From contig JABWBB010000006.1 of NCBI GenBank assembly GCA_013360675.1, forward strand, positions 1-64,000: 64,000 nucleotides of DNA, read 5' to 3'. Below the pieces are notes generated by a model, which was not told the DNA's origin, did not search any database, and worked only from the letters and a program-made list of their open reading frames with translations. Positions 38,185-62,120 of the stretch are shown here, piece after piece (position 1 is the first letter of the stretch; each line of letters begins with the position of its first letter). Source of the DNA: Phycisphaerales bacterium (GTDB taxonomy: Bacteria > Planctomycetota > Phycisphaerae > Phycisphaerales > UBA1924). Position numbers and translations under genes: made by a program.

Positions 38185-38814
38185 ATGTCAACCCCGGACC
38201 TCGATCAACTCCTCTCCGCGGCCAAGGCCGGCGATCGTGCCGCCCTGATCGATCTGCTCGAAGCCTTGGGACCGCAGGTGCGTGGTCGTCTGCTGCCCAA
38301 AATCAACGGGCACGTGCGCACGGCGCTGGATGTCGACGACCTGATGCAGGTGACCTATATCGAGGCGATCACGCGCCTGGATCGATTCCAGGATGGCGGC
38401 GCGAGCGGGTTTCTGGCGTGGCTGACGCGCCTGGCCGAAAACAACCTGATCGATGCCGTCCGAGCGCTCGAAGCGGCCAAGCGCCCCAACCCGCACAAGC
38501 GAGTCGGCGTGAACCCGCGCGGCGACGAATCGGTGGTCGGACTCGTCGAAGTGCTGGGGCTGACAAGCGCGACGCCCAGCCGGGCGGCGGCGATGGGCGA
38601 GGGTGTGCGGGCGCTGCAGGCCGCGTTGATGACGCTGCCGCCCGACTATGAGCGGGTGATCCGGATGTATGACCTCGAGTGCCGCCCGATCGAGGAGATC
38701 GTGCGTGAGTTGGGGCGGTCCGAGGGGGCGATCTACATGCTGCGTGCGCGTGCCCACGACCGGTTGCGTGAGCTCATGGGCTCGGCGGGTAAATACTTCT
38801 CCGCGCCGGGATGA
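38185..38814 (+). CDS. ECF-like sigma-70 factor coupled to a Ser/Thr kinase gene
   Basis: This 209-residue sigma factor has a region 2 (HVRTALDVDDLMQVTYIEAI and FQDGGASGFLAWLTRLAEN) and a region 4 with the DNA-binding helix-turn-helix (LPPDYERVIRMYDLECRPIE, then GRSEGAIYMLRARAHDRLRE). The ATG at 38185 (MSTPDLDQLL) is chosen; the 14 in-frame residues upstream have no family match. Its TGA overlaps an ATG (38811) in frame with the downstream kinase gene, so the two are probably translated together. Sigma factors of this kind in Planctomycetes are linked to Ser/Thr kinases that control them by phosphorylation. No anti-sigma factor is adjacent. Confidence 0.9.
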   Translation: MSTPDLDQLLSAAKAGDRAALIDLLEALGPQVRGRLLPKINGHVRTALDVDDLMQVTYIEAITRLDRFQDGGASGFLAWLTRLAENNLIDAVRALEAAKRPNPHKRVGVNPRGDESVVGLVEVLGLTSATPSRAAAMGEGVRALQAALMTLPPDYERVIRMYDLECRPIEEIVRELGRSEGAIYMLRARAHDRLRELMGSAGKYFSAPG

Positions 38815-38867
38815 AGACCATCGCGGTGGTGGTCGCGTATGCACGCAGGACATGTATTCATTTCCTC

Positions 38868-41507
38868 ATGAGCCAGCCCGATGAAGCCTCCCGCCCGTCC
38901 AACGCCTCGCGCACCACGCGCGAGCGTGACCTGATCGAGGGGGCACTCCGCCAGGCGCAGGCCCGCACGTCGGCGTCGGGATCTGTGCCGGAACTGCCAC
39001 CCACAGAGACGTTTCCGGGCTACGAGGTGATCCGTCCGTTGCACAAGGGCGGGCGGGGGCTGGGGTACCTGGCGATCCAAGCCGGATCTTCGCGCAAAGT
39101 GGCGATCCGTGTGCTTCAGGATGGAGCCTCAATTGGGCCGCGCGGGCGTGCGAGACTCGAGCGTGAGGCGGCCATCCTGAGTGAGTTTGAGTACCCCGGC
39201 TTTGTGCGGCTGCTCGAGTCTGGCTGGACCCAAGCGGGCGAGTTTTTCTATGTGCTCGACATGGCGGCGGGACGACGCCTCGAAGATGCGATCGAGGCCA
39301 AGGAGCGGCCGACTCCGGAAGAGGCCCTGCGGCTTGTCGCTGGGATCTGCGATGCGGTGAACGCGGCGCATCTGCGAGGGATTGTGCATCGTGATCTGAA
39401 ACCCGCGATCATCCGGCTGAACGCCGAGGGCGAGCCGCTCATCGGGGATTTCGGGTTGGTGAAGCTCGCGTGGAGCGACACCGGCGATGCCGCCGCACAC
39501 CGGCTGATCCTGACGGGGCAGCACACCGGCTCGCTCTCATGGGCCAGTCCAGAGCAGGCCGCGGGCGACGATTCAAAGGTTGATGTGCGTACGGACGTGT
39601 ACGCGCTGGGCGTGATGCTCTACCAGTTGCTGGCGGGGACATTTCCCTACAACGTGTATGCGAGCGCCCGGACGACGCTCGACGCCATTCTCAATGCCAC
39701 GCCCAAGCCCCTGGGGCTGAGCCGCACGCACCACAAGGCCGAGATCGAGGCGATCGTGAGCCGTTGCCTGGCTAAGGCGCCGGGCGATCGCTACCAGAGT
39801 GCGGGCGAACTGGCGTGCGATATCCGGCGAGTGCTCGGCGGCGAGGCTGTCGACGCGATGCGACGGAACAGGGCGTACGTGCTGTCGAAGGCGCTGCGTC
39901 CCTATCGAGCGTGGGTCGTCGTCGGGGTTGTGGGGATCGTGGGGCTTGGTGCTGTTGTGGGGTACATGGGCGTGAAGTTCCGACAGGCTTCGAGTGCCCT
40001 GGCCGAAGAAGCAAAGGCCAGGGTTGAGGCCCAGGCCATGGGCGAACAGGTTCAGGCGCAGCGCGCCAGGTCTGTAGAGAATCATCACGCGGCCCATGCG
40101 AGCTTGCTCGCAGTGATGCACGATCTGGGTGAACTCCTCGACGACTTGGCCGGCGGCACGCGGGCGATCGACTCGCTTATGCATCAGTCCCGGGCCTACC
40201 TGGAACAACTGCGGATTGATGCGGGTGATGATCCACGATTACTGCTCGACCTCGCGCTGACGCACGAGACGATCGGGGAGATCCGGATCATGACGCAACT
40301 GCTCGCCCGGGGGGACGATCCCGATGCGAACGAGCACTTCGGCAAGGCCGCTTCAATCCGAGCGGCATTGCTGGAACGCCTGCCCGACGACCCGCATGTG
40401 CAGGCGGGCAGCGCTCGCAGCAGTGTAATCTCGGCCAGGTTCCTGAGCGAGCGGGGCGAGCACGAGGCTGCCGTGGTGGAGTATCTGCGGGCGCGTGAGG
40501 GATACGAACGGGCGATCGCACTCCTGGGGAAACCCGCGACGGATGAGGATGCCGCACGCTGGTTGGCCTGGCGGGCGGAGGTGATCGCGCGTCGTGGGGA
40601 TGAACTCATCCGCCAGGGAGGGTTGGCGTCTGATCCGGAAGCCTGGACGCGGATGGTCAATGATGCCGAGCACTGTTATGACGAGGCCTCGCGGTTCTTT
40701 CGGGCGGTCATCGATCGTGATCCATTCAACATCGTGGCGAACCGCGGGCTTGGAGCGTTGATCGATCGGCGATCAGAAGTGCTCGCTGAAGTCGGTCGTG
40801 CCTGGTTCGCCCGGTCGGCAACGACGGATGAGACGAGGCGAGGTGAAGTGCTGCAGAATGCGATCGATCGATTCCGCGAGAGCGGCGAGGTGGCGCGGCA
40901 GGCGATGGCCGAACTCGAGCGGCGGACGGGGAGCCAGACGCCGAGCGTTCAGCATGGCCGCGAGTTGCTCCGGGCGGCGCTGCACGCGGGACGCTCTCAC
41001 CGCGAGGTCGCGCACACGCTAGAACTCATCCGCCCGGGGTCAACGAGCGACGATCACGCGCGTGCGCTGGCGATGTTTGAGCGGGCCTTGTCCCTGGCCC
41101 GAGGGCTGGCCTCCGGGTCCCCCCGCAGCCTTGCGGCGCGACGCGATCTGGCCGAATGTCTTGCACTGATTGGGGTGCAATCGCAGAGCGTCGGACGGCT
41201 CGATCAGGCCCTGGCTTCGATGCGAGAGGCGATCGAGATTCGTGCCTCGATCTTCGCGGCGGATGAAACCCCACGCAATGCGTGGGACCTGGCCAAAGCA
41301 CTGTCAGATGGCGCGGCGATCGCCGCCCGGGCCCCGCAACGAGAAGGGGATGCTGAACTCACGCAAGCGTTGGAGTGGTACGCGCAATCGATGGCGCACC
41401 TCCAAGGATTGCACGATCGGGGCTTGCTCGCCGGTGACGATCCGCTCCTGGTCTGGACCATGACGGCATTCGCCTCGATCCGGGCCCGTGAGAAGGGCTC
41501 CCCCTGA
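38868..41507 (+). CDS. Membrane Ser/Thr kinase-like protein with two catalytic residues replaced
   Basis: This 879-residue protein has a cytoplasmic kinase fold (about 45-320), one membrane helix (about 348-369, VVVGVVGIVGLGAVVGYMGV), and an exported helical part with a coiled coil and TPR-like repeats. HRDLKP (174-179), DFG (Asp194) and WASPEQ are intact. Two positions are not: the VAIK lysine is Arg81 (KVAIRVL), and the catalytic-loop Asn is Ile181 (HRDLKPAII instead of KPxNI). The Gly-rich loop is GGRGLGYLA, without the usual Val. It is therefore likely a pseudokinase or a slow kinase. The start at 38868 (MSQPDEASR) is preferred. An ATG at 38811 that overlaps the sigma stop would add 19 residues. 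Confidence 0.9.
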   Translation: MSQPDEASRPSNASRTTRERDLIEGALRQAQARTSASGSVPELPPTETFPGYEVIRPLHKGGRGLGYLAIQAGSSRKVAIRVLQDGASIGPRGRARLEREAAILSEFEYPGFVRLLESGWTQAGEFFYVLDMAAGRRLEDAIEAKERPTPEEALRLVAGICDAVNAAHLRGIVHRDLKPAIIRLNAEGEPLIGDFGLVKLAWSDTGDAAAHRLILTGQHTGSLSWASPEQAAGDDSKVDVRTDVYALGVMLYQLLAGTFPYNVYASARTTLDAILNATPKPLGLSRTHHKAEIEAIVSRCLAKAPGDRYQSAGELACDIRRVLGGEAVDAMRRNRAYVLSKALRPYRAWVVVGVVGIVGLGAVVGYMGVKFRQASSALAEEAKARVEAQAMGEQVQAQRARSVENHHAAHASLLAVMHDLGELLDDLAGGTRAIDSLMHQSRAYLEQLRIDAGDDPRLLLDLALTHETIGEIRIMTQLLARGDDPDANEHFGKAASIRAALLERLPDDPHVQAGSARSSVISARFLSERGEHEAAVVEYLRAREGYERAIALLGKPATDEDAARWLAWRAEVIARRGDELIRQGGLASDPEAWTRMVNDAEHCYDEASRFFRAVIDRDPFNIVANRGLGALIDRRSEVLAEVGRAWFARSATTDETRRGEVLQNAIDRFRESGEVARQAMAELERRTGSQTPSVQHGRELLRAALHAGRSHREVAHTLELIRPGSTSDDHARALAMFERALSLARGLASGSPRSLAARRDLAECLALIGVQSQSVGRLDQALASMREAIEIRASIFAADETPRNAWDLAKALSDGAAIAARAPQREGDAELTQALEWYAQSMAHLQGLHDRGLLAGDDPLLVWTMTAFASIRAREKGSP

Positions 41508-61223: not shown

Positions 61224-61904
61224 TCATCCACGAGGCGTGCCGACGAGTGCAATCGCAAAGCCGTCGTACCCCTTCATGCCCACGGTTTGAAGTACGCTCG
61301 CGGCGACCAAAGGTTTTTCACCCATGCGTGCGATGGCCCGACGTGAGCCCTGAACGCGCTCATCCGGATGGTTGGCGTCCACGATCGCCCCCTCTCGGAT
61401 CACGTTGTCCACGATGATGAGCCCGCCGACACGCGTCATCTGAAGCGCCAAGTCAACGTAGTTGGCGCTGTTCTCCTTGTCGGCATCGATGAACACCAGA
61501 TCGAACTTGTCCGGCTGCGGTGTGAGGCCAGCCATGACGCTGAGGGCGGCCCCACGCCGCACCTCGACCCGATCGGCGATGCCGCCCTCTCGAAAAGTCT
61601 GCTCGGCGTTTGTCGCCCACGTCTCGTTCAACTCGATCGTGGTGACGAGCCCGCCGGGCGCCAAGCCTTCGGCGAGCCACGCCGTGCTGTAGCCGCCGAG
61701 CGTTCCGATCTCGAGGATGCGTTTCGCGTTCGAAAGTCGGGCCATGAGCATCAGGAATCGACCCTGCATGGGTGACACGCTGATCGCGGGCAGGCCAAGT
61801 TCGATGCAGCGCGCCGCCGCGTGCGAAACACTGCGGGGAGTCGAGCCCAGGAGTTCATCGCAGGCGGCGTCAACCGCGCTCCACGTCTCGGTGTGATTGG
61901 TCAT
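61224..61904 (-). CDS. O-methyltransferase (class I, family 3)
   Basis: This 226-residue SAM-dependent enzyme resembles catechol/caffeoyl-CoA O-methyltransferases. The pre-SAM stretch is SVSPMQGRFLMLMARLSNAK, SAM motif I is RILEIGTLGGYSTAWLAEGL, and motif IV is DLVFIDADKENSANYVDLAL, with VGGLIIVDNVIREG the post-motif strand. The metal-binding D-x-DK and D-N pairs are intact. The substrate is unknown. ATG 61904 (MTNHTETWSAVD) is chosen because the 17 in-frame upstream residues have no family match. The gene lies between tRNA-Pro and the tRNA-Leu region. Confidence 0.92.
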   Translation of the reverse strand: MTNHTETWSAVDAACDELLGSTPRSVSHAAARCIELGLPAISVSPMQGRFLMLMARLSNAKRILEIGTLGGYSTAWLAEGLAPGGLVTTIELNETWATNAEQTFREGGIADRVEVRRGAALSVMAGLTPQPDKFDLVFIDADKENSANYVDLALQMTRVGGLIIVDNVIREGAIVDANHPDERVQGSRRAIARMGEKPLVAASVLQTVGMKGYDGFAIALVGTPRG

Positions 61905-62120
61905 GTCGTAGCCTATGGCTCGCTGTCGCTGCTGTGCGACCGGTTCGGTGGCCAACAGGCGCGGATATCAACGAGCGCGGAATTGCTTCGCCTTGAAATG
62001 TATGGACGAAGCCCATCGCCAGTATGGTTGAGCCATCACATGACGGGCAACATTGCGTGCGGGTTCGTCGTTGAGGTGACACGCCGCGTGTGATGGCCTT
62101 GGCGTGTGATTCACATGGTG

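Follow-up and report, generated by a model that had tools for sequence, protein, structure and literature searches.

A sigma factor paired with a degenerate membrane kinase in a Phycisphaerales bacterium: a possible change from phosphorylation to binding

In the 64,000-nucleotide stretch of Phycisphaerales DNA analysed here (the window), the gene for an ECF-type sigma factor is followed by that for a membrane-bound Hanks-type kinase, whose catalysis is very probably abolished or impaired. Residues for ATP use have been lost, while the sigma factor and the sensor half of the kinase protein show the same degree of conservation as their counterparts in related bacteria. This suggests that the sigma switch now operates independently of phosphorylation by the paired kinase protein. 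Our favoured reading, held with about as much confidence as doubt, is that an ordinary sigma/kinase pair of the family has here become a sigma/pseudokinase pair, in which the former kinase would serve as a signal-gated, membrane-anchored binder of the sigma factor.

The sigma/kinase gene pair

The features of the locus are collected in Table 1. The sigma factor matches the Pfam families Sigma70_r2 (1.2e-9) and Sigma70_r4_2 (8.2e-10). The nearest solved relatives of the kinase domain are those of PknB of M. tuberculosis (E 1e-37), and the predicted transmembrane helix is basic on its N-terminal side, which would place the kinase inside and the TPR part outside. A structure model made from a two-sequence alignment had a pLDDT of 48, too low for the model to be used.

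Table 1 Features of the sigma/kinase locus (window coordinates; residue numbers from ATG 38868 unless marked)
Feature	Position	Strand	Basis
Sigma factor of ECF type (209 aa) with sigma-70 regions 2 and 4	38185..38814	+	Pfam
Probable gene of the (pseudo)kinase (879 aa), with kinase domain, single TM helix and TPR region	38868..41507	+	PF00069, TPR matches, homologue alignment starts
Long form of (pseudo)kinase ORF, 898 aa, ATG overlapping sigma stop	38811..41507	+	
Degenerate Hanks-type kinase domain	39006..39845	+	PF00069, 100 bits
Gly66 at glycine-loop/C-spine Val (V66G)	39063..39065	+	Val 75, Ile 1 of 76
Arg81 (CGT) at VAIK Lys (reads VAIR)	39108..39110	+	Lys in 76/76 homologues
Ile181 (ATC) at catalytic-loop Asn (HRDLKPAI)	39408..39410	+	Asn in 76/76 homologues
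Ile214 at first activation-loop Thr/Ser (PknB T171 equivalent)	39507..39509	+	T 63, S 13 of 76
Single predicted transmembrane helix	39900..39980	+	Hydropathy peak, long-form residues 366-390
C-terminal TPR-like sensor region	40008..41504	+	TPR_8/TPR_12

The first-pass annotation had pointed to an overlap between the sigma stop codon and an in-frame ATG of the kinase gene. The shared ATGA (38811-38814) is present, but the ATG within it is probably not the true start. Homologue alignments begin only at about residue 19-36 of the long form, whose first 19 codons have no homologue support, so ATG 38868, 53 bp past the sigma stop, is the likelier start; with the overlapping ATG set aside in this way, the overlap may not signify translational coupling. 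A long ORF also runs antisense across the sigma gene (38188-38865, minus strand) and is open and similar in relatives; it most likely arises as a side effect of GC-rich codon usage.

The kinase was aligned with 76 homologues, 75 from the same GTDB family and one (L021) from the order; the family sample comprised 163 genomes, in which the window's genus is represented by a single genome. A sigma gene lies directly upstream in 60 of the 77 kinases in this alignment, and the pair is conserved across genomes, as is expected of a kinase-linked planctomycete ECF sigma pair. It is not obligatory, since one full-length homologue (L074, G085:C4) has no adjoining sigma gene. Nothing beyond the pair itself is conserved in synteny between genera. 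A gene of the window some 20 kb away from that for the sigma factor (61224-61967, minus strand) has homologues in two genomes of genus g3 (L066:6442-7089 and L067:11788-12435) that lie directly upstream of the sigma gene there. Both the kinase and the sigma trees put the window's proteins near the same g3/g73 loci, which points to a pair inherited together, although the placement of so long a branch is unsure. No second copy of the sigma factor or of this kinase subfamily was found elsewhere in the genome.

Loss of catalytic residues

The alignment bore out the first-pass claim that Arg81 stands at the VAIK lysine and Ile181 at the catalytic-loop asparagine, with HRDLKP and DFG intact. We take these two positions to correspond to K40 and N143 in PknB numbering. 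The proposed pseudokinase status is likewise supported by the sequence, as the two catalytic residues are lost together with the glycine-loop valine and one activation-loop threonine, the last two being defects beyond those noted in the first pass. A histidine also replaces an activation-segment phenylalanine (F in 76/76), and the second activation-loop threonine, T216 (PknB T173), is retained. The HRD, DFG and SPE motifs are unbroken, and D176 of HRD, K178, D194 of DFG and E100 are all in place. By sequence the domain is that of a pseudokinase, its fold still recognised by PF00069 and two catalytic residues gone; of a catalytically competent Hanks-type Ser/Thr kinase it has the HRD and DFG parts and, with R81 and I181, falls short of the whole. 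Some residual activity may nevertheless persist, since the HRD aspartate, the catalytic-loop lysine and the DFG aspartate are kept.

Several trivial or compensatory origins for these changes were considered and rejected. A WNK-like relocation of the lysine is not seen: no compensating lysine occurs at any other glycine-loop or beta3 position, the sole new basic glycine-loop residue is R63 (at a glutamine found in 76/76 homologues), and K60 stands at a conserved arginine. Arg81 is not a sequencing slip or chance change, because a lysine codon is separated from CGT by two or more base changes, both Lys and Asn are invariant in the 76 homologues, and 15 near-invariant columns are altered in all. 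Nor has the domain been swapped in from another kinase family, as it retains the GSLxWASPEQA signature of its family and groups with the same g3/g73 loci as the sigma factor does.

Conservation among relatives

Neither substitution is shared with any of the homologues aligned. The idea that Arg81 and Ile181 might be conserved in related genomes fails, both changes being unique to this protein within the alignment; because all 76 homologues have the lysine and the asparagine, the loss is private to one lineage and does not mark a subfamily with a different control mode. No relative closer than those in the aligned set was found among 400 genomes of the order, and a broader contig collection likewise gave none, its one match being a distant Polyangiaceae sequence.

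Across the 163 family genomes, a degenerate DNA pattern for HRDxKPxN hit 1,995 sites. When the last position was instead given a replacement codon, covering only codons that begin with C, G or T and those for Ile, 12 sites were hit, four of which are real kinases, including the one in the window. The other three retain a VAIK-type lysine. One of them (L117:862-2028, G064:C19) belongs to a different subfamily, reads HRDIKPSI with the lysine kept (VAAK), and is an independent loss of the catalytic-loop asparagine within the same GTDB family, through the same Asn to Ile change. The remaining two, L111 on the minus and L112 on the plus strand, have a histidine at this position (HRDVKPAH and HRDLKPAH) and an intact DFG.

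The 2.9 Mb genome from which the window comes encodes nine kinases, and the other eight keep the lysine and the asparagine; none of them is on the same contig. At a further locus of this genome (L009, G000:C26), a sigma-like gene precedes that for a divergent kinase with HKDVKPDN and VVIK, whose catalytic residues are present.

Distribution and rate of change

Columns were counted as near-invariant when at least 95% conserved in the remaining sequences (leave-one-out). By this count the kinase domain has changed at 15 of 79 near-invariant columns; the next worst protein has changed at 6 of 81, and the median is 0. The changes are concentrated in the N-lobe (10/24) as compared with the C-lobe (5/55, Fisher p=0.0014), where 50 of the 55 columns are kept. 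The same count for the sigma factor gave 0 of 36. Kinase-domain identity to its own clade is 49.4% (best 52.9%), below every pair between other genera (mean 69.8%, minimum 56.0%), whereas the TM+TPR part (23.6% vs 27.1% between other genera) and the sigma factor (56.2% vs 53.1%) lie close to the usual values. Mean tree paths follow the same division, at 4.67 against about 0.7-1.7 for the other proteins in the kinase domain, 3.79 against 2.9-4.2 in the TPR region and 1.39 against 1.2-1.8 in the sigma factor; the absolute length of the long kinase branch depends on the model, and the identities do not. Only the kinase domain is relaxed, its N-lobe most strongly, and the TPR region and the sigma factor evolve at the usual family rate.

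When the whole gene was allowed to drift freely in simulation until 15 near-invariant kinase columns had changed, 3.5-6.6 stop codons were expected, and 0.7-4% of runs remained free of stops. The actual reading frame has none in its 879 codons. Together with the family rate of the TPR half, this favours a protein that is still in use, as judged from one genome.

Phosphorylation and the sigma factor

Phospho-activation has been shown experimentally for ECF43 sigmas, in which the acidic motif of region 2.2 is incomplete and a phospho-threonine at that place helps (PMC8999054, PMC13147305); in EcfK, linker residues can matter too (PMC13147305). For the planctomycete ECF groups, gene neighbourhood is the basis on which phosphorylation is predicted (PMC8999054). 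The sigma factor studied here does not fit the ECF43 pattern of a missing DAED-type motif and a phospho-acceptor threonine in region 2.2. It keeps an acidic D49-V-D-D52, so the ECF43 rationale does not apply to it. The same acidity is general among the 57 paired homologues, with D or E at position 49 in 49 of them and at position 51 in 56, and D at position 52 in all. Three linker residues, S116, T130 and S132, are conserved in 56, 56 and 57 of the 57 and are all kept here, none having become Asp or Glu, which would mean either that something other than phosphorylation accounts for their conservation or that another kinase serves them. With no phosphomimetic change and the acidic RNA-polymerase motif kept, this sigma factor could be active without phosphorylation.

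Rival and favoured explanations

The strongest rival is ongoing loss. On this view the kinase domain has become dispensable, the sigma factor is either constitutive or regulated at the expression level, and the protein as a whole is decaying, with the TPR half possibly serving otherwise. The clearly relaxed kinase domain would be expected on this account, and the small set of nine kinases in the genome and a genus represented by one genome only are in keeping with it. We nonetheless regard it as unlikely, if still to be reckoned with, given that drift would by now have produced several stops or frameshifts where there are none, that the TPR region and the sigma factor have kept to the family rate, and that the C-lobe is mostly preserved.

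Two further accounts would retain phosphorylation. In one, the sigma factor is the substrate of a catalytically normal kinase encoded elsewhere in the genome, and the protein described here presents the sigma factor to that partner or activates the partner allosterically. The eight other kinases of the genome, which keep the lysine and the asparagine, and the unaltered linker serines and threonine, none replaced by an acidic residue, would suit such an adaptor; we think it improbable, as the contig holds no other kinase gene and phosphorylation of S116, T130 or S132 in this family is itself a supposition. In the other, Arg81 and the kept HRD and DFG aspartates permit slow or metal-independent phosphotransfer, comparable to that reported for CASK or Arabidopsis ILK1. 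Lysine to arginine is a conservative change, D176, K178, D194 and E100 are available, and phosphorylation of neurexin by CASK is reported to need no cations (PMC4718504). Against this stand the combined loss of the lysine, the asparagine, the glycine-loop valine and one activation-loop threonine, the relaxation of the N-lobe, and the absence of a new lysine elsewhere in the glycine loop or in beta3, and an atypical active kinase seems to us quite improbable.

In the favoured sigma/pseudokinase pair, the pseudokinase would no longer phosphorylate the sigma factor, and its preserved C-lobe would form a docking surface for it. The periplasmic TPR part would gate binding or release of the sigma factor at the membrane, so that the protein acts like a membrane-bound anti-sigma factor (or a co-activator, the sign of control being itself conjectural) instead of a kinase. 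The first-pass suggestion of a non-catalytic control mode is plausible in this form, given that neither the sigma factor nor the TPR sensor has been lost, but it cannot be extended to a subfamily when every homologue is canonical.

Relation to known systems

In gene order the pair resembles the planctomycete groups ECF59, ECF61, ECF62 and ECF217, in which an ECF sigma gene lies directly upstream of an adjacent Hanks-type Ser/Thr kinase gene in the same phylum (PMC8999054); it departs from them in that its kinase has lost the lysine and the asparagine. Joint encoding of a sigma factor and a membrane Hanks-type kinase is also seen in EcfP/PknT of Vibrio and EcfK/PknS of Xanthomonas, of ECF43 (PMC8999054, PMC13147305). 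There the kinase is active and phospho-threonine helps to supply the charge missing from an incomplete region 2.2, whereas the pair in the window combines a degenerate kinase with a sigma factor that carries DVDD.

Bacterial pseudokinases are already established. MviN, EssB/YukC and the families ActPs1-3, DLHK, GLW and CP1 act through non-catalytic protein binding (PMC12599244) and, like the present protein, combine a Hanks-type fold and lost catalytic motifs, often with a transmembrane helix after the fold. Going by their descriptions, members of ActPs, DLHK, GLW and CP1 share the loss family-wide; here it is unique to one of 77 proteins in an otherwise canonical family, and the operon partner, unlike theirs, is a sigma factor. 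The review of these families does not mention sigma, ECF or planctomycetes (PMC12599244). In the kinase-rich Myxococcus xanthus, 11 of 99 kinases are pseudokinases lacking catalytic residues, for which the available portion of that report describes no sigma pairing (PMC6791715). A pseudokinase paired with an ECF sigma factor was not found in the literature searched, a body that leaves most subscription journals outside. The distinguishing feature here is a sigma/kinase pair whose kinase has very probably turned pseudokinase in one lineage.

Implications for sigma/kinase pairs

It is a tentative proposition, and one we hold with more doubt than confidence, that a natural switch from kinase to pseudokinase has taken place inside a conserved pair, and that a sensor-kinase may thereby have become a membrane-bound, signal-gated sigma-binding protein. 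In planctomycete sigma/kinase pairs the kinase is assumed, from gene order, to turn the sigma factor on by phosphorylation. A pair that is kept after its catalytic residues have been removed offers a natural experiment on which of the two matters, catalysis or binding. If the proposition is true, docking of the sigma factor, and not phosphotransfer, would be the essential part of such pairs.
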